DNA of 40,713 bases, from positions 1-40,713 of the forward strand of contig JAEKKW010000058.1 of NCBI GenBank assembly GCA_019510195.1, read 5' to 3'. Origin of the DNA: Lysobacterales bacterium. Its GTDB lineage: Bacteria > Pseudomonadota > Gammaproteobacteria > Xanthomonadales > Xanthomonadaceae. A program made the translations under genes and the position numbers. The first letter of the stretch is position 1. Every line of letters starts with the position of its first letter. The notes beneath the pieces were generated by a model. That model did no database searches and was not told the DNA's origin. It saw only the letters and a list, made by a program, of their open reading frames with translations. Shown in pieces: positions 17,346-40,713 of the stretch.

Positions 17346-17422
17346 GCGCCCGTAGCTCAGCCGGATAGAGTAGTGGCTTCCGAAGCCATTGGTCGGGGGT
17401 TCGAATCCCTCCGGGCGCGCCA
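17346..17422 (+). tRNA. tRNA-Arg, anticodon CCG
   Basis: The 77-base gene folds as a canonical cloverleaf. The acceptor stem GCGCCCG pairs with CGGGCGC, followed by discriminator G and an encoded CCA (17420-17422). The D arm is GCTC/GAGT. The anticodon stem GTGGC/GCCAT encloses the loop TTCCGAA with anticodon CCG, which reads CGG. The T arm is GGGGG/CCCTC with loop TTCGAAT. The 3' end abuts the kdpE stop codon at 17423 on the opposite strand, so the primary transcript must run antisense into kdpE or be trimmed there. Confidence 0.97.
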
Positions 17423-20781: not shown

Positions 20782-20796
20782 AGTATCCGCGCTCCA

Positions 20797-21396
20797 TCAT
20801 CGATGCGCATCCAGCGCGAGGTTGAGCCGCACCACGTTGACTCGCGCCGGTCCGAAAATCCCGAACTGCGGCGCACGAGTGTTGGCATCCACCAATCGAC
20901 GCACATCGGCATCGGGCACGTCGCGCGCGCGGGCGACGCGCACGACCTGCTGCATCGCCGCCTGCACGCTGATGTCGGGGTCGACGCCGCTGCCGGACTG
21001 CGTCAGCAGATCATCGGCAACCTGCGCCGGGGCGATGCCATCGCGGCGTGCGATTTCATCGCGCAATTGCGCAACCTGCTTGCGCAAGTCCGGGTTGGTG
21101 CGGGCGAGATTGCTGCCGGCGGCGTTCATCGGATCGTATTTCGCCGCCGATGGCCGTGGCTGGAAATAGCCGGGCGCGGCGAACGGCTGTGCGACCAGTT
21201 CCGATGCAACGGGCTTGCCATCGCGCAGGAGGATGCTGCCGTGCGCGTGGTAGGGGAACAGCACGCCGTCGATTCCGCTGGAAAGCAGCGAATAGGAAAA
21301 ACCGAACAGGCCGAGGGTGATCGCCATCAGCGCGACCGCGGCGCGCCACAGGGCGCCAGTTCCGATCGGCAGATCCTGTTGTTGTGCAATATCCAT
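20797..21396 (-). CDS. kdpC: Potassium-transporting ATPase subunit KdpC
   Basis: Single-span subunit that helps assemble or gate the KdpFABC complex. The 199-residue product has one N-terminal membrane segment (about 18-40, ALMAITLGLFGFSYSLL), then a periplasmic domain with FQPRPSAAKYDPMNAAGSNL, the KdpC signature, and the C-terminal TRAPQFGIFGPARVNVVRLNLAL block. It starts three bases after the kdpB stop. Confidence 0.95.
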   Translation of the reverse strand: MDIAQQQDLPIGTGALWRAAVALMAITLGLFGFSYSLLSSGIDGVLFPYHAHGSILLRDGKPVASELVAQPFAAPGYFQPRPSAAKYDPMNAAGSNLARTNPDLRKQVAQLRDEIARRDGIAPAQVADDLLTQSGSGVDPDISVQAAMQQVVRVARARDVPDADVRRLVDANTRAPQFGIFGPARVNVVRLNLALDAHR

Positions 21397-21399
21397 GAT

Positions 21400-23394: not shown

Positions 23395-25112
23395 CGAATC
23401 GTTCCTTGCGCGACCAGTTGCAGATGGTCGGCGACCGGGCCGAGCACCAGTGCAGGCATGAATTGCAGGACGGTGAGGATCACCACCACCGACACCAATG
23501 TCAGCGCGAAGGTCGGCGTCTCGACGTGCAAGGTGCCGGCGCCTTCCGGTGCAACGCGTTTCTTCGCCATGCTCGCGGCGATCGCCAGCGGGAAGATCAG
23601 CGCCGGCAGGCGTCCGCACAGCAGCACGATGCTGCAGGTGACGTTCCACCACACGCTGTTGTCGCCCAATCCCTCGAAGCCCGAACCATTGTTGGCGAAG
23701 GCCGACGTGTATTCGTAGAGGACCTGGGAGATGCCGTGGTGCGCCGGGTTGGAGTTGGCGGCGAGCGATGGCACCGCCAGCGCGATCGCTGCGAAGCCGA
23801 GAATGACCAGCGGCTGGACCAGGATCAGTCCTGCAAGCAGGCGCACCTCGTGCGCTTCGATCTTGCGTCCGAACAGCTCCGGCGTGCGTCCCGTCATCAA
23901 TCCGGCGAGGAAGACCGCAAGCAACACGTAGACGAAGAACTGCAGCGCACCGCAACCGATGCCGCCCCAGATCCCGTTGATCAACATGTTCACCATCTCG
24001 ACGCCACCGGACAGCGGCGCGTAGGAATCGTGCATGCCGATCACCGAACCGTTCGATGTCTGGGTGGTGAGCGCGCCGTACACGGCCGAAGCATCGACGC
24101 CGAGGCGGACTTCCTTGCCTTCCATCACCAGTGTTCCGGCGCTGGCCGCGGTATGGCTTTCCAGCGCCAGCATCGCCGCGCTCGACGCCAGGGACATGCC
24201 GAGCATCGTCGCGAACACGAACGCGGAGAGACGCTTGCGCCTGGTGAAGGGGCCGATCATCGCCACGCAGCCGATCGGAATCAGGATCAGGAACACCGTG
24301 TTGAAGAAGCTGGAGAACGGCGTCGGGTTTTCCAGCGCCATCGCACCGTTCGGGCCGTACCAGCCACCGCCATTGGTGCCGAGTTGCTTGGCCGCGACCA
24401 TCGGCGCCACCGGGCCGACCGGAATATGTTGCGTCGCCATGCCGGCGCTGGCATCGATCGGCACGACATCGGCACCGCGCGTCAGCGTCGCCGGCACGCC
24501 CTGCCAGACCATCATCAGCGATGCGACCAGGCACAACGGCAACATCAGGCGCATGCTGGCGCGCACCACGTCCTGCCAGAAATTGCCGACGTCACGATCG
24601 CGCCCCTCGATGCCGGGCTCGCCGCGCTCGAGGACTTCGCGCCCGCCGAAGAAGGCGCGCAGCGTCGCCACCAGCATCGCCAACCCGAACATCGGCGTCA
24701 CCACCTGCAGGCCGACGATGGCGACCATCTGCGACAGCCACGACAGCTGCGACTGTCCGGAATAGTGTTGCTGGTTGGTGTTGGTGAGGAAGGACACCAT
24801 CGTGTGCAACGCCAGATGCCAGCTCATCCCCGGTGCGTTATCGGGATTGAGCGGCAAATGATCCTGGACCATGAACTGCAGCCAGCACGCCAGTCCCACC
24901 ACCAGATTGGCGGCAAGGAAGGACAGTGCATAGGTTTTCCAGCGCATGCGCACCGAAGCCGCGGGCCCGAGCAGCGCGTACAGCAGTTTTTCGATCGGGA
25001 GGAACACCCTGTCGAGCGGCGCCTTGCCGCCGCGCATCACCTTCGCCATGTACAGGCCGAGCGGCCAGCCGAGGACGATGGCGACGCCCATGACGAGAAC
25101 GAGATTGATCAT
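23391..25112 (-). CDS. kdpA: Potassium-transporting ATPase subunit KdpA
   Basis: Ion-selective membrane subunit of KdpFABC, related to superfamily-of-K-transporter channels. The 573-residue, strongly hydrophobic protein carries the four selectivity-filter-like regions around [34 protein letters not shown] and [10 protein letters not shown]. The start [25 protein letters not shown] is preceded by a TGAGG site that overlaps the kdpF stop codon. Length is close to E. coli (557). Confidence 0.96.
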
Positions 25113-26185: not shown

Positions 26186-28633
26186 TCAGCGCACCGGGCA
26201 TGCCGGAGCCGGTGCATCCTGCAGTTTGGTGCCCCAGCCATTCGGATCGGGCTTGTCGCTCAACGCGAACTGCAGCGTGCCGCCCTTGCGCAGCGTGTCG
26301 ACATCCAGCCACACGTTGTTCACCGGCTTGCCATCGAACTTCACCGACGAGACATAACCCGCTGCGCCCGGTTTTGCCGCCGGCGCTTCGACGCGCAACG
26401 CGCGGCCTTCGCCGAGATCGAGGGTGATGCGCGGATAGCGCGGCGGCAACAGCAGCAACTCGCCGGTGCCCGACATCAGCGGCGAGAAGCCGAGCGTGCC
26501 GAACAGATACCAGGCCGACATGGTGCCGAGATCGTCGTTGCCGGTGACGCCATTCGGTGCATTGGTGAACAGCGTCTGCGCCGCGCGCAACACGCCCGCG
26601 GTCTTCCACGGCTGGCCGATCAGGCTGTACAGGCTCGGCACCAGCATGGTCGGTTCGTTGTTGGGATTGAAGCGGTACTGGCCGTAGTAATCGTAGGCGC
26701 CGCCGACCCAGGTCTTGCGCGCCGCCTGCGGATCGGCGCCGATGGCGTCATACGCGAAGAAGGCGTCGAGGCGCTTGCCCATCGCTTCGCGTCCGCCCAT
26801 TGCCTCCGCCAGTGCCGGGACGTCCTGCGGCACCATCCACTGGTACTGCCACGCGGTGCCTTCATGGAACCCGTAGTGCGAACGCGGGCTGTAGCGTCCG
26901 CTCGGTGGCGTGAACCAGCCGCCGCCTTCCAGCTTCGGATGCGGGAAGCCGATGAACGCGGATTCCGGCTCGCTCAATTGCGCATCCCACAGGTTGCGCC
27001 AGTTGCCCGCGCGCGACTGCAAGGCCTTGGCATCGTCGGTGTGCCCCAGCGCCTGCGCCATCTGCGCGAGGGAACAATCCGCCGCTGCATATTCGAACGT
27101 GGCGGATCCGCCATTGCCGGGGTCGACATCCATGCCCTTGGCCGGGAAGGTGCGATCGAACATCACGAAGCCGTGCGCCAGATAGTTGACGTTGCCGGCG
27201 CGGCCTTCGCTGCGCGACGCCAGCGGCGGCACGTCCCAGGCGTTCTTGCGCAAGGCGCTCCAGGCATCGCCTTCCATGCCTTTCAGCGCGCCGTAGCGCC
27301 AGAGGTCGACCAGGAAGGGCGTGACCGGATCGCCGGTCATGGTGTTGGTGTCGAAATCGGCATAGCCCCATTTCGGCAGCCAGCCGTTCTGCGCATCGAT
27401 CGCGATCAGCGTGCGTCCGATATCGCGCGCGCGTTTCGGTTGCAGCAACGCCAGCAACTGGTTCTGCGCGCGATAGGTGTCCCACAGCGAGAAGTATTCG
27501 TAATAGGTCCAGCCGTCGGCGCGATGGATCCGGTCGTCGTAACCGCGATAGCGGCCGTCGGCGTCGCTGCCGGTCATCGGTTGCAGGAAGGCGTGGTAGA
27601 GCGCGGTATAGAACACGCTGCGATCGTCGGCGGAGCCGCCATCGATCCGCGCTTTGGACAGCTCCTTTTCCCACAGCTGCTGCGACTGCGCACGCATCGC
27701 ATCGAAAGCGATCAGCTTGCCATCACGCATGCCTTCTGCGCGCAGGTTGTTGCGCGCGCCTTCGATGTCGACGTGGGAGATCGCGGTGGTCGCGGTGACG
27801 CTGCGATTCCCTTTCAACCCGAAACTCACCCAGGCGCCGTTCAACGGTTCGTACTCGCTCTCCATGCTGTAGCGCGCGCCGGGCGTCCCGCCAGCCTGGC
27901 CCCACACGCCAAAGGCGATGAACGGGCGATCGAATTCGATGCGGAACCAGGTCGAATACTGGTGGCCGCCACAGAAACTCAGCGTGGTGATCTTGCCTTC
28001 CACCGCGCGATCGCCGACCACGCGGACCTCGCTGCCGATCACCCGGTGCTTGGCGTTCGCCTGCGCGACGTTGACCAGCACATGGCCGGTATCGGCATTC
28101 GCGGCCCAGGTGTAGCGTTCGGCGGAAGCACGCGGCAGCGCAGTGGTTTCGACATCGATGCCGCCGTAATCGGTCAGTCGCGCCTTGAAGTAGCCGGCCT
28201 CGTGGGCGCCGCCCTCCAGCGTGTAACGCGCGCCATATTGTTTCTGGTCGAACGGCTTGCTGGTTTTGGTATCGAACGTTCCGCCCGGCGCAATCGTTCC
28301 GGTCACCGGCAGCACCGACACCTGGCCGCCCTGCTCCCAGCAGCCCGCGCCCGACAGGAAGGAGTGACCGATGCCGAGGATCTTCTCGTCGCCATGGCGC
28401 CAGCCCGCGTAGTGCGAACCGATCGGGCTGGCCTGGATCATCCCGAACGGCGCCGATGCGCCGGGGAAGGTGTTGCCTTCGTCCTGGCTGCCGATCAGCG
28501 TGTTGACCGTCGCGGCCAGCGACGTGCGCGCCTGTGCCGAAGCGGTCATGCTTGCAGGAATCGTCAACGCCAGGGCGGCGATGAACGTTGCAATCGGGCG
28601 TGCCTTGGCACGCAGGCGGGACAGGCTGTTCAT
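26186..28633 (-). CDS. GH92 alpha-mannosidase
   Basis: Secreted or periplasmic, calcium-dependent exo-alpha-mannosidase of family GH92, which removes terminal alpha-linked mannose from N-glycans or mannan. The 815-residue protein has a signal peptide (cleavage near TASAQA), then VNTLIGSQDEGNTFPGASAPFGM, typical of the family N-terminus, an N-terminal beta-sandwich and an (alpha/alpha)6 barrel with FSLWDTYRAQNQLL, GFVMFDRTF region, the acid Glu591 in HEGTAWQYQWMVPQD, NNEPTMLVPSLY and the acidic pair Asp700-Asp701 in GNDDLGTMSAWYLFG. All expected catalytic positions are filled. It is divergent from the lacI-type gene with an operator candidate between them. The linkage specificity (1,2 / 1,3 / 1,6) is not clear. 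Confidence 0.95.
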   Translation of the reverse strand: MNSLSRLRAKARPIATFIAALALTIPASMTASAQARTSLAATVNTLIGSQDEGNTFPGASAPFGMIQASPIGSHYAGWRHGDEKILGIGHSFLSGAGCWEQGGQVSVLPVTGTIAPGGTFDTKTSKPFDQKQYGARYTLEGGAHEAGYFKARLTDYGGIDVETTALPRASAERYTWAANADTGHVLVNVAQANAKHRVIGSEVRVVGDRAVEGKITTLSFCGGHQYSTWFRIEFDRPFIAFGVWGQAGGTPGARYSMESEYEPLNGAWVSFGLKGNRSVTATTAISHVDIEGARNNLRAEGMRDGKLIAFDAMRAQSQQLWEKELSKARIDGGSADDRSVFYTALYHAFLQPMTGSDADGRYRGYDDRIHRADGWTYYEYFSLWDTYRAQNQLLALLQPKRARDIGRTLIAIDAQNGWLPKWGYADFDTNTMTGDPVTPFLVDLWRYGALKGMEGDAWSALRKNAWDVPPLASRSEGRAGNVNYLAHGFVMFDRTFPAKGMDVDPGNGGSATFEYAAADCSLAQMAQALGHTDDAKALQSRAGNWRNLWDAQLSEPESAFIGFPHPKLEGGGWFTPPSGRYSPRSHYGFHEGTAWQYQWMVPQDVPALAEAMGGREAMGKRLDAFFAYDAIGADPQAARKTWVGGAYDYYGQYRFNPNNEPTMLVPSLYSLIGQPWKTAGVLRAAQTLFTNAPNGVTGNDDLGTMSAWYLFGTLGFSPLMSGTGELLLLPPRYPRITLDLGEGRALRVEAPAAKPGAAGYVSSVKFDGKPVNNVWLDVDTLRKGGTLQFALSDKPDPNGWGTKLQDAPAPACPVR

Positions 28634-28683
28634 GAATGCCTCGACGCTGGGCTGAACACGGGTCTTGGGGATGATATGCTCGA

Positions 28684-28699
28684 TTTGAATCGATTTAAA
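28684..28699. promoter_or_regulatory. Candidate LacI-family operator between GH92 and regulator genes
   Basis: TTTGAATCGATTTAAA is a 14/16 palindrome with the central CG usual for LacI-family operators. It lies 15 bp before the regulator start and 51 bp from the GH92 start, so a bound regulator could repress both, including itself. Two related sites precede the TonB receptor gene. Confidence 0.6.
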
Positions 28700-28713
28700 A
28701 GCCCAATCCCGCC

Positions 28714-29751
28714 ATGAGTGCCCGGCAACGCGTCACCGTCGAAGACATCGCCCGTGCCTGCGGGCTTTCGCGCGCCACGGTGTCGCTGGTCCTGCGCGGC
28801 AGCCCGCTGGTGCATCGCGATACCCGCCAGCGCGTCGAAGAGGAAATGAAGCGACAGGGCTACGTCTACAACCGCGCCGCGGCCAACCTGCGCCGGCGCG
28901 TGTCGAACAGCATCGCCCTGGTGATCAACGACCTTTCCAATCCGTTCTTCGCGGAATTCGCCACCGGCGTCGACGAGGCGCTGGGTGGAAAGGACTACGT
29001 GACCCTGCTCGGTTGCAGCAACGAATCGCCGCAACGCCAGCAGCAGGTCCTCAATTCGCTGATGGAACACCATCCCGCCGCGATCATCCTGTCGCCAGCC
29101 GAAAACACCGATGCCCGCGACATCGCCCGCGTGGTCGGCGCGACGCCGCTGGTGGTGTTCAACCGCATGCTCGACCACGAAGACGGCGGCTTCGACCATG
29201 ATTTCCTCGGCCTCGACAACCGTGGCGGCGCCATGCAGGCGACCGCGCACCTGATCGAACGCGGCCATCGCGACATCGCCTTCTTCGGCGGCCATGCCAA
29301 TTCCAGTTCGTGCCAGGAGCGCCGCCAGGGCTACCGTGATGCACTGAAGAAAGCAGGGTTGCGCGTGCACAACGAATGGATGGTCGAATCGGCGCCGACC
29401 CGCGTCGATGCCTGCGCCCGCAGCGAAGCGTTGTTCGCCGGCAAGGCGAAACCGACCGCAGCGGTCTGCTACAACGATGCCGTCGCCCTGGGCCTGATGC
29501 TCGGCCTTGCCCACCACGGCCTGCATCCCGGCATCGATTTCGCCGTGACGGGATTCGACGACATCCCGGAGGCAGCGATGAGCATGCCTGCGCTCACCAC
29601 CCTCGTTGCCGACCCGCGCGCCCGCGGACGCCAGGCCGCCGACATGGTGCTGCGGCGGGTCGAACAGGCCACCCCGGCATCGCCACCCAACATCGTGCCG
29701 GTGCAGTTGGTCGAACGCACCAGCAGCTCCCAACCAGGATCCATCCCTTGA
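28714..29751 (+). CDS. LacI-family transcriptional regulator
   Basis: Predicted repressor of the mannoside locus. The 345 residues begin with a helix-turn-helix (VTVEDIARACGLSRATVSLV, 8-27) and hinge helix (NRAAANLRRR), followed by a periplasmic-binding-protein-like sensor domain beginning SNSIALVINDLSNPFFAEF and containing GHRDIAFFGG and FAVTGFDDIPEA. The inducer is likely a mannose-derived sugar or phosphate, inferred only from neighbours. The stop overlaps the TTG start of the fructokinase, so both are on one mRNA. The three ATCGAT-centred palindromes at 28684, 30796 and 30903 are its likely operators. Confidence 0.93.
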   Translation: MSARQRVTVEDIARACGLSRATVSLVLRGSPLVHRDTRQRVEEEMKRQGYVYNRAAANLRRRVSNSIALVINDLSNPFFAEFATGVDEALGGKDYVTLLGCSNESPQRQQQVLNSLMEHHPAAIILSPAENTDARDIARVVGATPLVVFNRMLDHEDGGFDHDFLGLDNRGGAMQATAHLIERGHRDIAFFGGHANSSSCQERRQGYRDALKKAGLRVHNEWMVESAPTRVDACARSEALFAGKAKPTAAVCYNDAVALGLMLGLAHHGLHPGIDFAVTGFDDIPEAAMSMPALTTLVADPRARGRQAADMVLRRVEQATPASPPNIVPVQLVERTSSSQPGSIP

Positions 29752-30719
29752 GCACCATCGTCTGTTTCGGCGAAGCCCTGATCGACTTCCTCGCCGCGCC
29801 CGAAGGCGGGCAGGGCCGGGTGTTCCGCCAATTCGCCGGTGGCGCGCCGGCCAATGCCGCGGTCGCGATCGCACGACTCGGTGGTGCCCGCGAATTCGTC
29901 GGCATGCTCGGCCGCGACATGTTCGGAGACTTCCTGCTCGACAGCCTCCACGAATCCGGCGTCGGCACGCGGTTCGTGCGCCGCACCGATCGCGCCAACA
30001 CCGCGCTGGCCTTCGTCTCGCTCGATGCACGCGGCGAACGCAGCTTCAGCTTCTACCGACCGCCGGCCGCCGACCTGCTGTTCGCGCAAAGCGATTTCGC
30101 CGACGCCTGCTTCCGCGATCTCGGCATCTTCCACGTCTGCAGCAACAGCATGACCGATGCCCGCATCGCCGAGACCACGTTGTCCGGCCTGCAGCGCGCA
30201 CGCGCTGCCGGTGCGCTCACCAGCATCGACGTCAACCTGCGCCCGGCGCTATGGCCCGAAGGCAAGCCGGTGATCGAACGCCTGTGGCAAGCGCTCGCGC
30301 TCGCCGACATGGTCAAGCTCGCGCGCGAGGAGCTGGAATTCCTGCAACAAGGCAGCATATCGGCGGATAGCGTGATCGAACGCCTGCTGCGCGATGCGCG
30401 CCTGGTCCTCGTCACCGATGGCGGCGAACCCTTGCGCTGGAACACGCGCAACGGCTCCGGCGTCATCACGCCGCCGCAAGTTTCCGCGCTCGACACCACT
30501 GCCGCCGGCGATGCCTTCATCGGCGGGCTGTTGTGCGGGTTGCAGCGCGACGGCATCGACACCGCGCGTCTGGACGGCTTCCTCGCCGACACCGATGCAC
30601 TGCAGCGCGCGCTGCGTTATGCCGCGGCATGCGGTGCATTCGCGGTGACCCGCCACGGCTCGTTCGCGTCGTTGCCGACGCACGAGGAAGCACAGGCCCT
30701 GCTCGCGCTGCAGTCGTGA
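29748..30719 (+). CDS. PfkB-family fructokinase
   Basis: Ribokinase-fold sugar kinase, most likely phosphorylating fructose to fructose-6-phosphate. The 323-residue protein starts with STIVCFGEALIDFLAAPEG, has the substrate-binding FAGGAPANAAVAIARLGG block and the ATP/catalytic motif DTTAAGDAF (Asp249-Asp255, Asp255 being the base). The start is taken as TTG at 29748, which overlaps the regulator stop (TTGA) and has AGGA nine bases upstream; no ATG is available at the N-terminus. Next to an AGE-type mannose isomerase candidate it would complete a mannose-fructose-F6P route. Other hexose specificities are possible. Confidence 0.9.
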   Translation: MSTIVCFGEALIDFLAAPEGGQGRVFRQFAGGAPANAAVAIARLGGAREFVGMLGRDMFGDFLLDSLHESGVGTRFVRRTDRANTALAFVSLDARGERSFSFYRPPAADLLFAQSDFADACFRDLGIFHVCSNSMTDARIAETTLSGLQRARAAGALTSIDVNLRPALWPEGKPVIERLWQALALADMVKLAREELEFLQQGSISADSVIERLLRDARLVLVTDGGEPLRWNTRNGSGVITPPQVSALDTTAAGDAFIGGLLCGLQRDGIDTARLDGFLADTDALQRALRYAAACGAFAVTRHGSFASLPTHEEAQALLALQS

Positions 30720-30795
30720 GCCACGGCTGACAGCAGCCTGCTGCAGGGCAACATGCATCCGCCGCGCCTCCGTGTTATTAATCCGTTGCCATGGC

Positions 30796-30811
30796 ATTAG
30801 ATCGATCTAAA
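30796..30811. promoter_or_regulatory. Candidate LacI-family operator 1 upstream of the TonB receptor
   Basis: TTAGATCGATCTAA (30797-30810) is a perfect 14-bp palindrome inside ATTAGATCGATCTAAA, matching the pattern of the site at 28684 around a shared ATCGAT core. It is 154 bp before the receptor start and 107 bp from the second upstream site, a distance that would allow looping. Confidence 0.6.
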
Positions 30812-30902
30812 TCGATCGGCCATGGCTGCAGGGAAGGGTCGGGAGTCTGACGGCGGGCGGCTTGCAGCAAATCCAGGGCAGCTGAAGCGGTTTTCCTCGC
30901 TA

Positions 30903-30918
30903 TTTGGATCGATCCATA
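30903..30918. promoter_or_regulatory. Candidate LacI-family operator 2 upstream of the TonB receptor
   Basis: TTTGGATCGATCCATA contains a perfect 12-bp palindrome TGGATCGATCCA (30905-30916) and agrees at 14 of 16 positions with its own complement. It lies 47 bp before the receptor start, where it would overlap the promoter (possible boxes TTTTCC at about 30891 and CATATC at about 30915, weak). Confidence 0.6.
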
Positions 30919-30964
30919 TCTTTCCCGCGCTCGTCGCCGATCCAATCCCAGCAGAGAGAACGGA

Positions 30965-33900
30965 ATGAAACTGTCCCCCCGCTCGCAGCATCGGAACCCG
31001 CTGTCCGCCGCCATCGCCGTCATCCTCGCCACCGCCGCGGTGTCACCGGCCATTGCCTTCGCCCAGCAGGCGACCGCACCTGCCGACAGTGCAGCGACCA
31101 GCGCGCAGGCAGAACAGAAGAAACCCAACGAGCTCGACAAGGTGACGGTCACCGGCTACCGCTATTCGATCGAGAAGAGCCTCGACCAGAAGCGCGACGC
31201 CAACGCCATCGTCGAGGTGATCACCGCCGAAGACGTCGGCAAGTTCCCCGACAAGAATGTCGCCGATGCGCTGCAGCGCGTGCCGGGCGTGATCATTTCC
31301 CGCGATGGCGGCGAAGGCAAGAATGTCAGCGTCCGCGGCCTGGCTTCGGACCTGACCCTGACCGAGTTGAATGGCAATTACGTCGCCACCGCCGAATCCA
31401 ACGGTGATCCGACGCGTTCGTTCAACTACACGCTGATGCCGTCGAACATGCTGTCCAGCGCGGAACTGTTCAAGACCCCGGAAGCGCGCATCGACGAAGG
31501 CGGCGTTGGCGGCACGGTGATCCTGCACACGCGCCGCCCGCTGAGCGTCAAGTCCAACAGCGGTTTCGTCAACGTCGAAGGCGCGATGGCCGACAACCGT
31601 GTGCATGACAAGATCGATCCTTCGATCTCCGCGCAATATTCCTGGCATGACAAGGACAACCGCTTCGGTCTCCTGGTCGGCTATACCCGGCAAAAGCGCA
31701 ATGCGCGCACCATGGGCACCAGCACCGAAGACTGGCAGTGGTACGGCGACGATTACACCAACCACCCGGCAACCGATGTCAACGGCCGCCCCCAGAACCA
31801 GCAAGGCATCCATTACTGGTGGGGCGAATCCGGCTTCCATGACCAGAACGGCGGCTACTACACCAACTTCTTCATGCCGACCTCGGTCAACACCAGCGTC
31901 ACCAATGAACAGCGCGAACGCAAGGGCGGACAGCTGACCGCGCAGTTCAAGCCGACCAACGAGCTGACCCTGACGGCCAACTACTTCCGCTTCAACCTGT
32001 CGCAGAACTCGCAGACCAACACGCTGAAGATCCCGGAATGGAACCTCGCGCGTTATTCCGGCGACGGCAACTGGCCGGGCGGCCGCATGCTCGACGGGCT
32101 GACCCTGGACCCCAGCGGCACCATCGTCACCGGCGCGCAATACAGCGCGCACCCCGGAAAGACCTACTACTGCAGCGGCGACCAGGCCACGGCGGGCGGG
32201 ATGACGAACAACGGCGGCTTCGGTCCCGACGACTGCACGATCCCGACACCGCAGATCACCGGCAGCTACAACCTGCAAAAGGCGGTGTCGCAGACGTTCG
32301 ACCTCGAACTCGAATGGCACCACGGCCCGTTCGACGCCTCCATCAAGGGAGGTCGCACCTGGGCCAACGGTGGCCCCTCGCTGCAATACACGATTCCGAT
32401 CAAGCCGCGCGTCCAGAACGCCGATGGCAGCTGGACGCTCGGCAACTATGCCAGTGCATGGAACCTGAGCGGCACGCCGTCGATGACGTTTTCGCCGCAG
32501 CTGATGCAGAACCTGAGGAACGGCATTCTGGAAGCCGATCTCGGCTCGACCGCAGCACCGGCAACAACTACTGGGTCTGCCCGGGCACCGATCCGAACAA
32601 CTATGACAATCGCGTCGGACAAAGCAGCAATCCCTGCCCCGCGCTTGCCAGCCAGTTCCCGTCGTACCTGCTCTACCAGAATTCGCTGGCCAACACCGGC
32701 GGCGCATTCAACAACAGCGCATTCCCGGCGATCAATTATCCGGCCTACATCACCTACCTCAACAATACCTTCGGGCCGATGCGCGCCCGCAACGAGCCGA
32801 ATTTCGTCTACAACGTGGGCGAGAAGATCTCGTCGATGTATGCGCAGGCCAACTTCCGCACCGAACGCCTGCGCGGCAACATCGGTGTCCGCCTGGTCCG
32901 CACCCAGCAACATGCGGATTCAACGGACCAGGTCGATTACTACAACGCTTACTTCTACCGCGATACCTCCGGTGCCGTGGCGCCCTGCACCTCGGGTGGC
33001 ACGATTCCCGCTGCGGGCGCGCCATCGGGATCGGGCTGCCAGGGCGGTTACACCACGCTGCCGGACAGCCAGACCAACCCGGCCACCGGTCACGTTTCCT
33101 CATTCGTGATCAGCAAGCTCGATCGCACCTACAACGACGTCCTGCCCAGCTTCAACATCGCCTACGACATCACCAAGGACCTGGTGCTGCGTGGCGCGGC
33201 CTCCAAGGTCATCTCGCGTCCCGGCTACAACGACATCGCCGCGCCGGGCAACCTGAACTACGTCAGCCAGCAGTACGTGACCGACCATCAGCTGATTGGC
33301 GGCGGCGGCCAGATGGGCTGGACCGGCAGCGGCAGCAACAAGAACCTTGAACCCTACAAGGCCACCCAGTTCGATCTCGGCCTGGAGTGGTACTTCCATC
33401 CGGGTTCGATCGTGGGTGTCGGCCTGTTCCGCAAGAACGTCAGCAACTTCTCGGTGCCGGTGGTGCAGAACGTGTCGATGAGCATCGACACCAGCAACAT
33501 CAAGTTCAACGGCACGCCAGTGGCGACGCAGAACCCGGTGACGGTGCAGAACTACTCCACCACCGCCGGCGGTCGCAATGGCGTATCCGAAGGCGTCGAA
33601 CTCTACGCGCAGCACACGCTGGATTTCGGCCTCGGCTTCCAGGTCAACTACACCTACAACAAGACCAACGAAGCGGCCATCACCCTCGCGGACGGCACCT
33701 CCATCGGCAAGTCGCCGCTGGTCGGCAGCGCGAGGAACCAGGCCAACTTCACCGTGTTCTACGAAACGCAGAAGCTCATGTTGCGTGCTTCCTACAACCG
33801 TCGCGGTGAAGTGGTCGACGGGCTGGTCAATGGCTTCAACGTCTATGAGGAGCCGTACCAGCAGATCGACCTGAATGCTGCATACAACTTCACCGATGCC

Positions 33901-34038
33901 TTCAGCATCAGCGCTTCGGTACTGAACCTGACCAGGGAAGTCGGACGCTCGCACCTGGGCGATGACACCAGGGACCGTTTCTATTCCAACAGCTACTCCG
34001 GCCGCACCATGTATCTTGGCGCGACCTACAAGTTCTGA
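30965..34038 (+). pseudogene. TonB-dependent receptor (Xanthomonas/Caulobacter type), frameshifted
   Basis: Outer-membrane active importer, here probably for mannose-containing oligosaccharides. The signal peptide ends at IAFA/QQ (residue 33), a TonB-box-like DKVTVTGYRYS follows near 57, then the plug domain (DVGKFPDKNVADALQRVPGV, NVSVRGLASDLTLTELNG, EGGVGGTVILHTRRP) and a long barrel ending GATYKF with the terminal Phe. The first frame is good to about residue 528 (GILEADLGST) and then becomes nonsense that stops at 33109. The next frame continues with RSTGNNYWVCPGTDPNNYDN to 34038. One missing base near 32548-32555 explains this; the restored protein would be about 1,024 residues, normal for this class. 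No slippery heptamer is near. A ribosome-binding site (GAGAGAACGGA) precedes the ATG at 30965. If the lesion is real the import system is dead. Confidence 0.9.
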
Positions 34039-34051
34039 TGTCCTCCCCCGT

Positions 34052-34076
34052 CCCGCATCGCGCATGGCGATGCGGG
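34052..34076 (+). other. Hairpin after the TonB receptor gene
   Basis: A perfect 10-bp stem (34052-34061 with 34067-34076, loop GCATG) begins 14 bases after the receptor stop and is followed 10 bases later by the terminator-like hairpin. It could protect the receptor mRNA 3' end. Confidence 0.5.
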
Positions 34077-34086
34077 GCACTCCGGT

Positions 34087-34124
34087 GCCGGCAGCCTGCC
34101 TCCCCGGGCTGCCGGCTTTTCTTT
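34087..34124 (+). terminator. Intrinsic terminator between receptor and halogenase genes
   Basis: A perfect 10-bp GC stem (34087-34096 with 34107-34116) is followed by TTTTCTTT (34117-34124), the best intrinsic terminator in the window. The halogenase ribosome-binding site GAGAGGA starts directly after the T-run. Partial termination here would give high receptor and lower enzyme expression. Confidence 0.75.
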
Positions 34125-34138
34125 GAGAGGAATGCACG

Positions 34139-35659
34139 ATGACGCCCAGCGACAACCGGATCAGGAAGGTGGTCGTCGTCGGTGGCGGGAGTGCGGGATG
34201 GATGGCCGCCGCCGCGCTGGTCACATACCTCGACAAATCGGTGTCGGTGCGCCTGGTCGAATCCGAAGAGATCGGCATCGTCGGCGTCGGCGAATCGACC
34301 GTTCCCTTCATGAAGACCTTCAACGCCCAGATGCTGGGCATCGACGAAGCCGATTTCATCCGCGAGACCGAAGGCACGTTCAAGCTCGGCATCCAGTTCA
34401 ACGACTGGGCGCGCATCGGCGACAGCTACGTGCACGGCTTCGGCACCATCGGCCGCTCGCTGGGGCCGCTGCCGTTCCATCAATACTGGTTGAAACTGTT
34501 CCTCGCCGGCCGCGCGCCGGGGATCGGCGCGTATTCGCTGCCGACAGTCGCCGCGCCGCTGGACAAGTTCGCGACCAGTCCGCCCGATGCGCCGCCAGGC
34601 TCGCCGCTGGCGGATATCGCCTACGGTTACCAGTTCGACGCTGGCCTCTACGCGCGTTACCTGCGCGGTCTCGCCGAACGCCGTGGCGTGCAACGCAGCG
34701 AAGGCAGGGTCGTCGATGTCGTCCAGCGTGGCGAAGACGGTTTCATCGAGGCGATCGTCATGGAGAGCGGCGAGCGCATCGAAGGCGAGCTATTCATCGA
34801 TTGCTCGGGCTTCCGCGGCCTGCTGATCGAGCAGACACTGAAAACCGGCTACGAAGCATGGTCCCGATGGCTGCCCTGCGATCGCGCGATGGTCGTGCCG
34901 AGCGCAAGCGCCGGACCGTTGACGCCGTACACGCGCGTGAGTGCGCGTCCGGCGGGCTGGCAATGGCGGATCCCGACCCAGCGACGCGTTGGCAACGGCT
35001 ACGTCTATTCCAGCAATCACATCAGCGATGACGAAGCCGCGGCAACCCTGCTGGCGACGCTCGATGGTCCCGCACTGGCCGACCCGCGCCCGCTGCGTTT
35101 CACGCCGGGACGACGCAAGCAGTTCTGGAACCGCAATGTCGTCGCAGTGGGTCTTGCCGGCGGTTTCATGGAGCCACTGGAATCCACCGCGATCTATCTT
35201 GCGCAGTCCGCGGTCCAGCGCCTGCTCGGCCTGTTCCCGGACCGCGATTGCGACCCGTTGCTGCGCGATCGCTTCAATCGCGAATCCGCTTTCGAACACG
35301 AGCGCGTCCGCGATTTCCTCGTCCTCCACTACAACGCGACCGAGCGTGACGACACCGCATTCTGGAACCACTGCCGGACGATGGCGATTCCGGATCCGTT
35401 GCGAGAGACGATCGACCTGTTTCGCATCGACGGCCGCTATTTCCGCAACGCCGAGGATTTCTTCGCGTTGCCGAGCTGGGTGCAGGTGATGCTGGGCCAG
35501 CGCATCATTCCGCGTGGCCATCATCCGATCGTGGACAAGCTGCCCGCCGAACGGCTGGAACAATTCGTCACTCGCATCCAGCAGGAAGTCGCCCACGCCG
35601 TGAACGCGATGCCTGACCACCAGAGCTTCATCGATCACTATTGCAAGGCGATGCCATGA
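34139..35659 (+). CDS. Flavin-dependent tryptophan-halogenase family protein
   Basis: FAD/FADH2-dependent halogenase family (PF04820 type), cytoplasmic with no signal peptide. Known members add Cl or Br to tryptophan, indole or other electron-rich rings through hypohalous acid. The 506 residues contain the dinucleotide motif GGGSAGW (15-21), VGVGESTVPF (48-57), a Lys82 in TFKLGIQF that aligns by position with the catalytic lysine of PrnA/RebH, DCSGFRGLL (221-229), the WxWxIP motif WQWRIP (274-279) and EPLESTAIY with Glu345 (345-353). So the halogenase signatures look complete. It follows the TonB receptor after tandem hairpins and overlaps the beta-mannosidase start. No flavin reductase gene is in the window. 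What it halogenates, and why it sits with sugar genes, is unknown. Confidence 0.9.
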   Translation: MTPSDNRIRKVVVVGGGSAGWMAAAALVTYLDKSVSVRLVESEEIGIVGVGESTVPFMKTFNAQMLGIDEADFIRETEGTFKLGIQFNDWARIGDSYVHGFGTIGRSLGPLPFHQYWLKLFLAGRAPGIGAYSLPTVAAPLDKFATSPPDAPPGSPLADIAYGYQFDAGLYARYLRGLAERRGVQRSEGRVVDVVQRGEDGFIEAIVMESGERIEGELFIDCSGFRGLLIEQTLKTGYEAWSRWLPCDRAMVVPSASAGPLTPYTRVSARPAGWQWRIPTQRRVGNGYVYSSNHISDDEAAATLLATLDGPALADPRPLRFTPGRRKQFWNRNVVAVGLAGGFMEPLESTAIYLAQSAVQRLLGLFPDRDCDPLLRDRFNRESAFEHERVRDFLVLHYNATERDDTAFWNHCRTMAIPDPLRETIDLFRIDGRYFRNAEDFFALPSWVQVMLGQRIIPRGHHPIVDKLPAERLEQFVTRIQQEVAHAVNAMPDHQSFIDHYCKAMP

Positions 35660-38310
35660 TGACTCTGCGCAATTGGCTCGGGCTGGCGCTCGCGACGACG
35701 CTGTCCCTTTCCGCGCAGGCGAAGGGCGGCGCGAATGGCGTGTCGATGCAGCATCTCGACGGTGCATGGACTTTCCGCCTGCAACCGGATGATGCGCAGG
35801 CCGCCAGCCATCGGGCGATGACGACGTGGCGGCGCGCGACCGTTCCGGGCACGGTGCATACCGATCTGCTCGCCAACCACCGGATCCCCGATCCCTATGT
35901 TGGCGCGCCGGAAGCGGGACTGCAGTGGATCGGCCTGGCCGGCTGGGAATACCGCCGCGGTTTCGATGTCGATGCCACGGCGTTGCGCGCAAGCCGCAAC
36001 GAGCTGGTGTTCCAGGGCCTCGATACCCTCGCCGACGTCTGGCTCAACGGCGAACGCATCCTGTCCGCCGACAACAGCTTCCGCACCTGGCGGATCCCGG
36101 TGCACGGAAAATTGAAAGCGCATGGCAACATACTGCGCGTGGTCTTCCATTCGCCGATCGCCACAATGCTGCCGCAGGTGCAGGCGATGCCGCACAAGAT
36201 CGCCGGCAACTACACCTCGCCCTATGGCGACGAACCGAAGGATGCGATGACCGCGAACTTCGTGCGCAAGCCCGGCTACCACTATGGTTGGGACTGGGGT
36301 CCGCGCTACGTCACCGCCGGGATCTGGCAGCCGGTGTCGCTGCAGAGCTGGAGCGGTGCGCGCATCGACGACCTGCAGATCCGCCAGGACCATGTCGACG
36401 GCGATCGCGCGGAACTCACCGCGCGCGTGCGCATCGATCCCGCTGCGGCTGCACACTATCGCGTGCGTCTGTGGCAGGTCGCGCCGGATGGCAGGCGTAC
36501 CGCCGCCGGCGACCGCGAGGTGGATGCGGCGACGACAACGACTGTCGACATTCCCGTGCACATCGAACATCCGCAGCGCTGGTATCCCAACGGCTATGGC
36601 GCGCAACCGCTGTATCGCTTCGAAGCGGAGGTGCTGGCCAACGGTCGCGTGACCGATCGCTTCATCCGCCGCACCGGACTGCGCAGCGTCGAATTGCGCC
36701 GCGAAAAGGACGCCTCCGGTCGCAGTTTCGAATTCGTGGTCAACGGCATTCCGGTGTTCGCCAAGGGCGCGAATTCGATCCCCTTCGACATGTTCGCACC
36801 GCGCCCGGGCGATGCGCAGATCCGTCGCACCCTGCAGTCGGCGCGCGACGCCAACATGAACATGTTGCGCAGCTGGGGCGGCGGTTACTACGAACGCGAC
36901 GCCTTCTTCGATGCCGCCGACGAACTCGGCCTGATGGTGTGGCAGGACTTCATGTTCGGCGGCGGCATGCAGCCGGCCTGGGATCCCGCCTTCCGCGCCA
37001 ATGTCGTCGCCGAAGCGCGCGACCAGCTGCAGCGCCTGCGCAACCACCCCAGCATCGTCCTGTGGTGCGGCAACAACGAAGAAGAGATCGCCTGGAAATA
37101 CTGGGGTCACGGCAAGGAACTGGGTGCCGCTGATCCGGTGTTCGCGAAGAAGGTCTGGGACGGCTGGCAACAATTGTTCGACCATGACCTGCGCAACGTG
37201 GTGCAACAGGAAGGCGGCGGGATTGCCTATTGGCCAAGCAGTCCCAGCGCCGACGATCTCGCCGGCAAGGCCGACATCAACGAATCGGGCGATCGGCATT
37301 ACTGGGAAGTCTGGGGCGGCCCCGCCTACCCGTACGAGAAATATCTCGAGATCACGCCGCGCTTCATGTCCGAATACGGGCTGCAGGCCTGGCCGGAGAT
37401 GCGCACGATTCGCGCATTCGCGGGAAAAGGTCCGCTGGCGATCGACAGCCCGGTGATCACCGCGCACCAGAAGTTCATGGCCGGCAAGGGCAACGAACGC
37501 CTGATGCACTACATCGCCATGGAATACGGCACGCCGCGCGATTTCGCCGATTTCGTTTACCTGAGCCAGGTGATGCAGATGGACGGCATTTCGCTGGCGG
37601 CATTGCATCATCGCGCCAGTCGTCCGGTGACGATGGGTTCCCTGTATTGGCAGCTCAACGATGTCTGGCCGGGCGCGTCGTGGTCGGGCATCGACTGGTT
37701 CGGACGCTGGAAACCGCTGAACTACGCCGCGCGTCGTTTCTACGCGCCGGTCGCGGTGGCGGCATTGCGCCAGAACGGACGCACCACGGTGACGCTGCTC
37801 TCGGATCGCACCACGGAACATCAGGGCCAGCTGCGGACGCGCCTGTTCGATCTCGACGGCAAGCTGCTGCGCGATGAGACGACTGCGGTGAAATTGCCGC
37901 CATTGAGCGCTTCGGTGGCGATGACGCTCGACGACGCGCAGCTGCTACGCGGCATCGATGCGAAACGAACCGTTGCCGCCTTCGATCTTTACGTCGATGG
38001 CGAGCCCGCATCTCGCGGGGTGGTCTATTTCGCCCATGCCAAGGACATCGCCTGGCCCGATCCCGGCCTGCACCGCGCATGGTCGCGCGACGGCAAGACA
38101 CTGCGTTTGACCGCCACGCGTTTCGCGCGCGGTGTCTGGGTCGATTTCGGCGATCTCGATGCCACCCTATCCGACAACGCATTCACCCTGCTGCCGGGTG
38201 AAACGATCACGCTGCAGGTTCGCAGCGACGCATCGCCGAACCGCTTGCAGACCGCGCTGCAGGTCCGCAGCCTCGCCGATGCGCTTTCTTCAACCCCTCC
38301 ATCGAATTGA
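35656..38310 (+). CDS. GH2 beta-mannosidase
   Basis: Exo-beta-mannosidase of family GH2, hydrolysing terminal beta-1,4-mannose such as the Man-beta-1,4-GlcNAc core of N-glycans or manno-oligosaccharides. The 884-residue protein has a signal peptide (cleavage near LSAQA/KG), an N-terminal jelly-roll (WRRATVPGTVHTDLL, FQGLDTLADVWLNG), MTANFVRKPGYHYGWDWGPR typical of GH2 mannosidases, the barrel with the acid/base Glu475 in WCGNNEEE and nucleophile Glu573 in SEYGLQAWPE, and SLYWQLNDVWPGASWSGIDW. The start at 35656 overlaps the halogenase stop (ATGATG; the next ATG at 35659 is possible). It follows the halogenase as one transcription unit and is followed after 4 bp by the AGE gene. Confidence 0.95.
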   Translation: MMTLRNWLGLALATTLSLSAQAKGGANGVSMQHLDGAWTFRLQPDDAQAASHRAMTTWRRATVPGTVHTDLLANHRIPDPYVGAPEAGLQWIGLAGWEYRRGFDVDATALRASRNELVFQGLDTLADVWLNGERILSADNSFRTWRIPVHGKLKAHGNILRVVFHSPIATMLPQVQAMPHKIAGNYTSPYGDEPKDAMTANFVRKPGYHYGWDWGPRYVTAGIWQPVSLQSWSGARIDDLQIRQDHVDGDRAELTARVRIDPAAAAHYRVRLWQVAPDGRRTAAGDREVDAATTTTVDIPVHIEHPQRWYPNGYGAQPLYRFEAEVLANGRVTDRFIRRTGLRSVELRREKDASGRSFEFVVNGIPVFAKGANSIPFDMFAPRPGDAQIRRTLQSARDANMNMLRSWGGGYYERDAFFDAADELGLMVWQDFMFGGGMQPAWDPAFRANVVAEARDQLQRLRNHPSIVLWCGNNEEEIAWKYWGHGKELGAADPVFAKKVWDGWQQLFDHDLRNVVQQEGGGIAYWPSSPSADDLAGKADINESGDRHYWEVWGGPAYPYEKYLEITPRFMSEYGLQAWPEMRTIRAFAGKGPLAIDSPVITAHQKFMAGKGNERLMHYIAMEYGTPRDFADFVYLSQVMQMDGISLAALHHRASRPVTMGSLYWQLNDVWPGASWSGIDWFGRWKPLNYAARRFYAPVAVAALRQNGRTTVTLLSDRTTEHQGQLRTRLFDLDGKLLRDETTAVKLPPLSASVAMTLDDAQLLRGIDAKRTVAAFDLYVDGEPASRGVVYFAHAKDIAWPDPGLHRAWSRDGKTLRLTATRFARGVWVDFGDLDATLSDNAFTLLPGETITLQVRSDASPNRLQTALQVRSLADALSSTPPSN

Positions 38311-38314
38311 TGCC

Positions 38315-39476
38315 ATGAACACGCCAGCACAAGCCATTCCGCCCCTGCCCGACTTCCTCGATCCGGACGCGCTGCGTGCGCACATCCGCCAGACGATGGC
38401 CTTCTACCACCCGCATTGCATCGATCCCGACGGCGGCTTCTTCCACTACTACATGGACGACGGCACGATCCATGATCGCAGCCATCGCCATCTGGTGAGC
38501 AGCACGCGCTTCGTCTTCAACTACGCGATGGCCGCCAACGAGTTCCACGAAGATGCGGCGCTGCGCCGGCAATACCTCGATGCAGTCCACCACGGCCTGC
38601 GCTACCTGCGTGAAGTGCATTTCGATCCGCAGAGCGGCGGCTATGCCTGGACGATCCGCGACGGCAAGCCCGAAGACCTGAGCCAGCAATGCTATGGCGC
38701 GGCCTTCGTGCTGCTGGCCTACAGCTGCGGACTATCGCGGCCAGAACGCCAACATGCACATGTGCGAGGCGATGCTTGCGGCGTTTGAGGCCAGCGGTGA
38801 ACAGCGCTATCTCGATCGCGCCCTGCTGCTTGCCGACCACATGACGCGCCGCCAGGCCGACAAGGCCGATGGCCTGGTGTGGGAACACTACGACAAGGAC
38901 TGGAACGTCGATTGGGATTTCCATCGCGACGATCCCAGGCATCTGTTCAAGCCCTGGGGATTCCAGCCCGGTCACCAGACCGAATGGGCCAAGCTGCTGA
39001 TGATCCTGCATGCGCATTTGTCGAAGAAGGGGACTGCGCCGGAATGGCTGGTGCCGAAGGCCCGTTTCCTGTTCGACGAAGCGCTGCGCAAATCGTGGGA
39101 CGACGAGTTCGGTGGCATGGTCTACGGGTTCGCGCCGGACAGGTTGCGCGCGCCCGGCGTCGAAGGCCGCCTGCTCGCCGACGGTGAAACCTTCGTCTGC
39201 GACGAGGACAAGTATTTCTGGGTGCAGGCCGAATCGATCGCCACCGCGGCGCGTCTCGCCACCGTCACCGGCGACGAACGCTACTGGGAGTGGTATCGCA
39301 AATTGTGGCAATACGCCTGGCAGCACATGATCGACCATCGTTATGGCGCCTGGTATCGCATCCTCGATCGCCAGAATCGCAAGTACAGCGACGAGAAGAG
39401 CCCGGCCGGCAAGACCGATTACCACACCATGGGCGCCTGCCACGACGTGCTGTCGGTGCTGCGCGCACAAGGATAA
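38315..39476 (+). pseudogene. AGE-family epimerase/mannose isomerase, internally deleted and frameshifted
   Basis: N-acylglucosamine 2-epimerase (AGE) superfamily, probably a mannose isomerase or epimerase making fructose (or glucose) from mannose in the cytoplasm. The N-terminal half in the first frame reads TMAFYHPHCIDPDGGFFHYY, HLVSSTRFVFNYAMAANEF and CYGAAFVLLAYS and then ends in nonsense at 38788. The C-terminal half, in another frame from about 38730, reads DYRGQNANMHMCEAM, LVWEHYDKDWNVDWD, PWGFQPGHQTEWAKLL, DKYFWVQAE and KTDYHTMGACHDVL to 39476. Compared with the family, the helix pair between AFVLLAY and YRGQNANMH (about 45 residues) is missing, so this is a deletion of roughly 130-140 bp that also changes frame, not a one-base slip. 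It starts 4 bp after the GH2 stop. As given it cannot make an active (alpha/alpha)6 barrel. Confidence 0.85.
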
Positions 39477-39487
39477 GGACGAACGAC

Positions 39488-40713
39488 ATGACGATGCGCG
39501 CACGAACACTTTCCGTCTTCATCCTCGCCGCGCTCGCCGCCCATGCCGGTGCGCAATCGCGTCCGGCACCGGACTTCGCGAGTTCATTCGAAGCGAATGA
39601 GCCGCAGCCGCAGTTGAAGCCGGCGGATGGAAACATCGCGCTCGCCATCGGCGACGGCCCGGAATCGCCCTACAACGCCAAGGCCAAGGCCGGCTACAGC
39701 GGCCTGCGCGCATTGCGCTACGAGGGCCGTGACACGGGTGGCCGCGCGCGATTGTTCGCGATGGACATCCCCGTGGACGCCAACACCACGCTGTCGTGGC
39801 TGGTGCTGCCGGAAATCGTCGCCGGCGACACCATTGCATCCACCGGCGTCGGCATCGACCTGGTGTTCGATGACGGTCGTCGCCTGTCGCAACTCGACGC
39901 CCGCGACCAGCACGGTGCAGGGATCACGGCTGCGGAGCAAGCCGCATCGAAAATGCTGTATCCGCAGCAGTGGGCACGCAAGCAAGTGCATGTGGGCGGG
40001 ATCGCTGCGTTGCGCGGCCATCGCATCCGCGCGATCGAAGTGGAATTGCAGCCGGTCGCGGGCGCGAAGGCACAAGGATGGATCGACGACATCGCGATCA
40101 CGTCGCAACCGCGCATCGCCAACACGCATCCCTCCGACGATGTGCTGACCACGCGCGGCACCCAGTCGAATGGCACCTTCTCGCGTGGCAACAATTTCCC
40201 CGCGACCGCGCTTCCCCATGGCTTCAATTTCTGGACGCCGCTGACCGATGCCGGCACGCTCGGCTGGCTGTATCGCTGGAACGAAGGCAACGACGGCGAC
40301 AACCGTCCGCGCCTGCAGGCGCTGGCGCTGAGCCACGAACCGAGCCCGTGGATGGGTGATCGCCAGACCTTCCAGGTGATGCCGTCGCTGGCCACGCGCG
40401 AACCGGAAGCCGATCGCAAGAAGCGCGCATTGCCGTTCAGCCACGATAACGAGGTCGCGCGCCCATATCTCTACGGCGTGCATTTCGACAACGGCATCAC
40501 CGCGGAAATCGCGCCCACCGACCACGGCGCGCTGTTCCGCTTCCGTTTCCCGACCGACGATGGCAAGAGTGGCAGCACACTGTTGTTCGACAATGTCGAT
40601 GCCCGCGGCGGATTGACGCTCGATCCGGCGACGCAAACCCTCAGTGGCTACACCGATACCCGCAGCGGCCTGTCGAACGGCGCGGCGCGCATGTATGTCT
40701 ATGCGCGCTTCGA
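39488..40713 (+). CDS. GH92-type alpha-mannosidase, partial (runs off right edge)
   Basis: Second GH92-family enzyme of the locus; only the first 408 codons are present. The signal peptide is MTMRARTLSVFILAALAAHA followed by GAQ, so it is exported. Residues about 30-200 form an extra N-terminal beta-sandwich of the carbohydrate-binding type (SSFEANEPQPQLK, LSWLVLPEIVAGD), and from about 220 the GH92 N-terminal domain begins: RGTQSNGTFSRGNNFPATA, then LPHGFNFWTPLTDAGTLGWL and ALSHEPSPWMGDRQTFQVMP, a pattern known from large GH92 proteins. The catalytic barrel lies beyond the edge. The start at 39488 has AAGGAC upstream, overlapping the AGE stop region (39494 is an alternative). It differs from the first GH92 in having this N-terminal extension, so it may cleave another linkage. 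Confidence 0.9.
   Translation, partial: MTMRARTLSVFILAALAAHAGAQSRPAPDFASSFEANEPQPQLKPADGNIALAIGDGPESPYNAKAKAGYSGLRALRYEGRDTGGRARLFAMDIPVDANTTLSWLVLPEIVAGDTIASTGVGIDLVFDDGRRLSQLDARDQHGAGITAAEQAASKMLYPQQWARKQVHVGGIAALRGHRIRAIEVELQPVAGAKAQGWIDDIAITSQPRIANTHPSDDVLTTRGTQSNGTFSRGNNFPATALPHGFNFWTPLTDAGTLGWLYRWNEGNDGDNRPRLQALALSHEPSPWMGDRQTFQVMPSLATREPEADRKKRALPFSHDNEVARPYLYGVHFDNGITAEIAPTDHGALFRFRFPTDDGKSGSTLLFDNVDARGGLTLDPATQTLSGYTDTRSGLSNGAARMYVYARF

Follow-up and report, generated by a model that had tools for sequence, protein, structure and literature searches.

The described enzymes closest to the halogenase analyzed here are Xcc4156 from Xanthomonas campestris (structure 6y1w) and BrvH from Brevundimonas (6frl). 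According to the accessible part of the paper on Xcc4156, this enzyme has an open active site, does not halogenate free tryptophan, accepts indole and its derivatives, and might have peptides as substrates. BrvH, in the part of its description available to us, shows low activity in the bromination of indole and lacks residues to hold the amino and carboxy groups of tryptophan; its substrate in nature may be something other than indole. Loci for glycan uptake have been described in the same bacterial family: the nix N-glycan cluster and the CUT loci of X. campestris associate a TonB receptor with glycan hydrolases, and the CUT loci also carry a regulator, as far as the parts of these papers at hand describe them. 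Neither the paper on the nix cluster nor that on the CUT loci uses the word "halogenase" in its main text. Among the papers listed by a literature search, no title or opening of an abstract described receptor-linked halogenases, most subscription journals lying outside its scope; an earlier statement that the association with TonB receptors is known was thus not confirmed. Within the parts of the texts available, a study on oil and dispersant at the transcript level (PMC11337851) mentions TonB receptors and a tryptophan halogenase in separate places, and PMC10919026 nowhere mentions TonB.

We analyzed a stretch of 40,713 nucleotides from a Lysobacterales bacterium (contig JAEKKW010000058.1), hereafter called the window. 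A preliminary description had placed a flavin-dependent halogenase inside a mannoside-utilization locus, and this is where we found it: the gene lies between the receptor and GH2 genes in the order LacI-PfkB-TonB receptor-halogenase-GH2-epimerase-GH92 (Table 1). The stop codon of the halogenase (TGA, 35657-35659) overlaps the ATG of the GH2 gene at 35656 by 4 nt (ATGA), so that the translational coupling to the beta-mannosidase proposed earlier is right in structure. As in the nix cluster and the CUT loci, a TonB receptor stands with glycan hydrolases, and the window locus combines receptor, degradative enzymes and regulator as a CUT locus does. The window halogenase adds a member to an established group of enzymes, and its locus is of a type already described.

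Table 1. Features of the mannoside locus and positions in the window
Feature	Position	Strand or location	Evidence
GH92 alpha-mannosidase, first copy, divergent	26186..28633	-	PF07971 453 bits, PF17678 161.8 bits
Palindromic operator TTGAATCGATTTAA (candidate)	28685..28698	between GH92 and LacI	TTNRATCGATYNAA, place one of two
LacI-family regulator	28714..29751	+	PF13377 114.1, PF00532 112.9, PF00356 41.9 bits
PfkB sugar kinase, fructokinase-like	29748..30719	+	PF00294 185.9 bits; start from in-house gene caller
Palindromic operator TTAGATCGATCTAA (candidate)	30797..30810	between PfkB and receptor	TTNRATCGATYNAA, place two of two
TonB-dependent receptor TIGR01782	30965..34038	+	pieces of 344.3 and 344.2 bits, cut-off 310
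Terminator-like hairpin, receptor-halogenase gap	34087..34126 (12-pair hairpin 34087-34116)	+	10/12 pairs G-C, T-rich tail
Flavin-dependent halogenase PF04820	34139..35659	+	625 bits; fold matches 9luq, 6frl, 6y1w
GH2 beta-mannosidase-like	35656..38310	+	PF22666 180, PF17753 66.8, PF17786 60.8 bits
N-acylglucosamine 2-epimerase family	38315..39476	+	PF07221 84.7 and 255 bits, two pieces
Second GH92 alpha-mannosidase	39494..40713	+	PF17678 112.6 bits; cut by contig end at 40713

The families encoded in the locus suggest a short catabolic route, in which mannose freed by the GH92 and GH2 enzymes would be isomerized to fructose and phosphorylated by the PfkB kinase. The epimerase-family protein would be mannose isomerase-like, and the kinase scored 214.2 bits with a fructokinase model, below the cut-off of 450. 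None of the genes scanned in the locus was recognized as an inner-membrane sugar transporter; the contig ends inside the last GH92 gene. Elsewhere in the window, a GH20 hexosaminidase gene (15660-17264) adjoins a tRNA-Arg gene (17346-17422) about 9 kb from the locus, and Kdp potassium transport and sensor genes occupy 18127-24534 on the minus strand. The match to the KdpB model exceeds the cut-off with 972.8 bits, and that to the KdpD model reaches 638.9 bits of the 1123 required.

Two genes of the locus are broken in this assembly. The receptor frame is interrupted near 32550, where 127 bp are missing, and the epimerase frame near 38730, where 128 bp are missing, relative to three related loci (L035, L036 and L075, the last two from the same genome); both genes are intact in relatives. 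Since the two frame-breaking losses are nearly equal in length, they suggest an assembly fault. If the deletions are real, the locus may be inactive in this genome.

The halogenase ORF encodes 506 amino acids, and its PF04820 match (cut-off 21) covers residues 10-469 and positions 1-457 of the 458 in the profile. The tryptophan-halogenase signatures listed in the preliminary description, GGGSAGW, K82 in FKLG, WQWRIP and EPLEST, were each found in the ORF. Loss of the active-site Lys/Glu pair, which would have spoken against a halogenase, was not seen: in an alignment with 91 relatives, K82, E345, E348, W274, W276, I278 and P279 were invariant in all 92 proteins, the conservation of WQWRIP being partly built into this set by the search pattern and that of the Lys and Glu residues not. 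In three pairwise comparisons among the window, L035 and L036, dN/dS was 0.10 to 0.12 for the halogenase, 0.09 to 0.12 for LacI, 0.14 to 0.16 for GH2 and 0.15 to 0.23 for the receptor (C part). Judged from these ratios, purifying selection on the halogenase gene is strong.

The structure model of the halogenase had a pLDDT of 90.3, and its top fold match was 9luq, the halogenase of Pseudoalteromonas sp. L11 (Z 57.6, rmsd 1.6 over 487 residues); the fold comparisons marked VIA-align are re-examined Foldseek matches, not a full structure search. The nearest solved structures are the same by sequence and by fold: 6y1w (Xcc4156, 49% identity, Z 54.4), 9luq (45% identity) and 6frl (BrvH, 44% identity, Z 55.7). 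PrnA, RebH and PyrH share the fold (Z about 48 each) and the catalytic signatures at about 30-34% identity, but their lid for free tryptophan is missing in the window halogenase. Indeed, local alignments to PrnA and RebH stop at residues 429-431, and the region of the RebH-type substrate lid shows no insertion when aligned to Xcc4156 and BrvH. Xcc4156 has a short loop at the position of the RebH lid, according to the accessible part of its description, as does the window protein, which is 8 residues longer than Xcc4156 near the region-1 loop of the latter. By these alignments the halogenase is not of the PrnA/RebH free-tryptophan type, the substrate lid (region 2) being absent; judged by its closest sequences and folds and its short region-2 loop, it is a member of the BrvH/Xcc4156 indole-halogenase group. 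The partly available text on BrvH mentions a second halogenase upstream, whereas the window locus has one.

The genome assembly (2.19 Mb, 149 contigs, 90.39% complete) encodes one protein of the sort described here, the window halogenase. Three further PF04820 matches (58.3, 39 and 24.1 bits) are all on contig 2, where the first two fall within one protein of a different type. Xanthomonadins, the aryl polyene pigments of this bacterial family, are brominated, and the window halogenase could in principle brominate a pigment of this type. The separate PF04820/PF01494 protein on contig 2 speaks against it, as its gene directly precedes a chorismatase-like gene, which we take to be the expected pigment context, and no pigment genes were recognized among the genes scanned in the halogenase locus. 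We rejected pigment bromination by the window halogenase, given the separate PF04820 gene elsewhere in the genome, and regard it as extremely improbable. As an observation in its own right, the PF04820/PF01494 oxidoreductase gene (L002, 1111-3488 on contig 2) and the chorismatase-like gene after it probably belong to a xanthomonadin-type pigment cluster.

A flavin-dependent halogenase needs reduced flavin, and we searched the genome for reductases of the families PF01613 and PF00970. PF01613 gave 0 matches in this 90.39% complete genome, whereas 13 of 14 control genomes match, and PF00970 gave one. FADH2 must therefore be supplied by a general reductase, or by a reductase whose gene lies in the missing tenth of the genome; a dedicated flavin reductase was rejected as a candidate on the lack of a PF01613 match. 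The absence of PF01613 would also fit a flavin monooxygenase that derives from a halogenase and no longer halogenates, a role that the preliminary description had listed, and the solved relatives are without a known natural substrate in the parts of their descriptions at hand. These same relatives, however, brominate model substrates according to those parts, and all checked halogenation residues are invariant in the 92 proteins. We consider such a loss of halogenation highly improbable and the protein probably an active halogenase.

We then compared the surroundings of related halogenases in 80 named loci, which are the best 80 among the matches listed and hence biased to close relatives. Genes of these relatives were called and their clusters labeled with a simple in-house caller, with one representative per labeled cluster compared to Pfam (20 representatives); clusters 6, 7 and 15 (ABC permeases, ATPase) were labeled without Pfam, and clusters 3, 8, 10 and 11 were named after the window proteins that they resemble. 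In 60 of these best 80 loci, the gene directly upstream of the halogenase, in the same orientation, encodes a receptor. Another halogenase is the upstream neighbor in 4 loci; 9 have a different gene there and the receptor at another place in the locus, and 7 have a different gene and no receptor in view, some contigs being short. A receptor cluster occurred in 72/80 loci, LacI in 32/80 and a sugar-related cluster in 65/80, a count that includes LacI, ABC and binding-protein clusters and falls to 59/80 with enzymes and kinases alone.

In a tree of the 92 halogenases, the loci were labeled starch (25), mannoside (17), PF10091 type (13), GH30/GH3 (8), GH1/GH3 (4) or, when no marker cluster lay within the available stretch, other (25). 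These labels required 18 changes on the tree, against 54.5 in shuffles. A random neighborhood, which would have counted against the linkage to receptor and sugar genes, was not seen: the tree follows glycan type, and the receptor is kept next to the gene at the frequency given above. The halogenase thus follows receptor type and glycan type, and what the types have in common is the sugar receptor and not mannosides.

The mannoside halogenases form one clade of 22 rows (17 mannoside, 5 other) from Lysobacteraceae, Oxalobacteraceae and one record labeled Bacillus, and all 21 non-window members have an ortholog of the window receptor in their locus. The same receptor-halogenase-GH2 core is present in Lysobacter silvestris AM20-91, L. 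chinensis TLK-CK17 and Massilia phyllostachyos, and the receptors of L. silvestris AM20-91 and of a genome from the window's genus (G046) are 100% identical. The record labeled Bacillus sp. 2B10 (L083), which carries a TonB receptor, a halogenase and mannosidases, is probably a mislabeled or contaminated assembly.

The sister clade of Xanthomonas adjoins another receptor type (OMP_b-brl_4; L103), unlike the window halogenase. Its member L021 is 63% identical to the window protein and has the motifs ATVPHI and HGFGT of Xcc-b100-4345, as given in the accessible part of the report on that enzyme; the shared motifs suggest one type of protein for both. In genus g7, taken as Xanthomonas, the ortholog of the window halogenase is absent from 7/7 receptor-positive genomes, and all 7 have the sister-clade type.

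Cupin_8 genes occur near related halogenases in 6 of the best 80 loci listed (L099, L111, L113, L136, L138 and L150), as do DUF6445 genes (L099, L118, L125, L142, L148 and L150). Cupin_8 proteins, and perhaps DUF6445 proteins too, may be iron oxygenases. These neighbors hint at a wider oxidative-modification set.

Next, we evaluated how regularly the halogenase accompanies the receptor. An ortholog of the window receptor (E 1e-100) was scored in 40 of 198 genomes of the family, a number that could miss some as up to four candidates per genome were considered. A halogenase ortholog (69% identity or more) was present in 15 of these 40 genomes and missing from 25, and 0/198 genomes had it without the receptor ortholog (hypergeometric 3e-12, ignoring kinship and linkage). 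A more distant halogenase is encoded elsewhere in 20 of the 25 ortholog-less genomes, where it is a possible stand-in; the other 5 (G029, G030, G062, G124 and G179) had no halogenase match at E 1e-30. In 20 of the 25 ortholog-less loci, some of them cut by contig ends, tblastn detected no halogenase. GH92 or GH2 was found in 14 of these 20, so that the remaining 6 cannot be counted as mannoside loci. The halogenase is probably dispensable for the locus, for which the 5 genomes without any match at E 1e-30 are the firm basis.

These distributions bear on the ligands that the preliminary description had considered. An aromatic aglycone or ligand imported with the mannoside would suit a halogenase within the operon, probably under one regulator. 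Since the halogenase tree groups by several glycan types, a mannoside aglycone is disfavored: the same subfamily occurs in starch, beta-glucan and GH1/GH3 loci, and the ortholog is missing from the majority of the genomes with the same receptor ortholog (25/40). We hold this reading to be very unlikely. A siderophore-like ligand found no support, as the receptor passes TIGR01782 and the surrounding genes are sugar genes. The frequent absence of the halogenase and its exchange between receptor subgroups would also fit a passenger gene without functional tie to sugar uptake. This is hard to reconcile with the immediate receptor linkage in most of the best 80 loci listed, with a clade that covers Lysobacteraceae and Oxalobacteraceae, and with strong purifying selection, and we judge a mere passenger decidedly unlikely.

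Given that an ortholog of the same receptor is present in the locus of all 21 non-window halogenases of the mannoside clade, the halogenase might modify a Trp or Tyr of the neighboring receptor before export and so tune uptake. Relatives that halogenate Trp in peptides or proteins exist, such as MibH (fold Z 40.4), and the model of QhpG, whose substrate is a protein, matches the window halogenase at 2.4e-07, yet with 30 bits against a cut-off of 240. We compared 21 receptors with and 19 without halogenase; 19 of the 20 halogenase-less receptors retrieved entered the tree, which was built without the frame-broken receptors of L074 and of the window. Trp makes up 80% or more of the rows in 15 columns, and no Trp column differed by more than 35 percentage points between the two sets in either direction. 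One Tyr column was commoner in receptors with halogenase (14/21 versus 2/19), and a D/E position, an N column and two A columns differed by more than 60 points; kinship alone would give such non-Trp differences. On the receptor tree, presence of the halogenase changes at least 5 times. Moreover, the halogenase data reject a tree that splits the halogenases by the two deep receptor groups (p-AU 1e-4), the groups being taken from the receptor tree and a first halogenase tree having been seen before the test. With no discriminating Trp column and incongruent trees, Trp modification specific to the receptor was rejected, a Tyr target aside, and receptor modification as a whole appears distinctly unlikely. 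Together, the repeated changes of presence, the lack of a Trp column and the rejected co-split tree argue for a halogenase that is optional and probably not tightly tuned to the receptor sequence.

The locus contains candidate regulatory sites. Just two sites in the 2.19-Mb genome assembly carry the palindrome TTNRATCGATYNAA, both of them in the halogenase locus, and so the halogenase is probably part of a dedicated LacI regulon. We assign this putative operator to LacI on its position and palindromy. A weaker third operator-like site lies at 30903-30918, and a looser form of the palindrome has three sites in the window versus 0.06 expected. A search of the + strand over 28600-40713 gave no promoter-like site.

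The tail of the hairpin in the receptor-halogenase gap ends about 12 nt before the halogenase ATG. As this leaves no room for a promoter, halogenase expression probably depends on read-through past the hairpin. Among the matches listed, 59 receptor-halogenase gaps have a length of 40 nt or more; similar hairpins were present in 29 of these, versus 2.5 expected from mononucleotide, not dinucleotide, shuffles. The region 28600-40713 as a whole is not enriched in terminator-like sites (7 versus 8.1 in shuffles). In L. silvestris (L075) the gap measures 20 nt, below the length for the hairpin test, and a peptide gene in the gap was rejected as a general feature on this ground; no linked peptide substrate was found.

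We propose that the window encodes a BrvH/Xcc4156-type halogenase in an N-glycan/mannoside regulon, probably controlled by the LacI repressor. The enzyme would be cytosolic, its FAD motif beginning at about residue 12. Arrival of mannosides would lift repression at the two palindromes, and receptor mRNA would be made; transcription would stop partly at the hairpin, and read-through would yield less of the halogenase, the beta-mannosidase, the epimerase and the GH92 enzyme. A general reductase would reduce the flavin, and the halogenase would form hypohalite, bromide probably being preferred, at the site of Lys82 and Glu345/348. The halogen would be placed on an electron-rich ring of a bulky substrate, for which peptide-linked Trp or Tyr would be likelier than free tryptophan. 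Halogenation would be accessory, and sugar use probably independent of it.

Taken as a whole, this account, in which an FADH2-dependent halogenase is induced, has an accessory role and acts on a bulky, possibly peptidyl substrate with an indole or phenol group, appears somewhat probable from the sequence data. That the substrate is a peptide or protein we regard as possible, on the doubtful side. A broader and more tentative idea, rather unlikely in our view, is feeding-coupled halogenation, of which the same literature search found no description: glycan-class-specific halogenases in sugar-uptake regulons would halogenate a peptide or protein, a signal or a deterrent only during glycan import. 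For the question of what BrvH- and Xcc4156-type enzymes act on in nature, the window locus offers a candidate regulator, a candidate operator and a candidate class of inducer, and the loci that have the same receptor without the halogenase gene provide a natural comparison.
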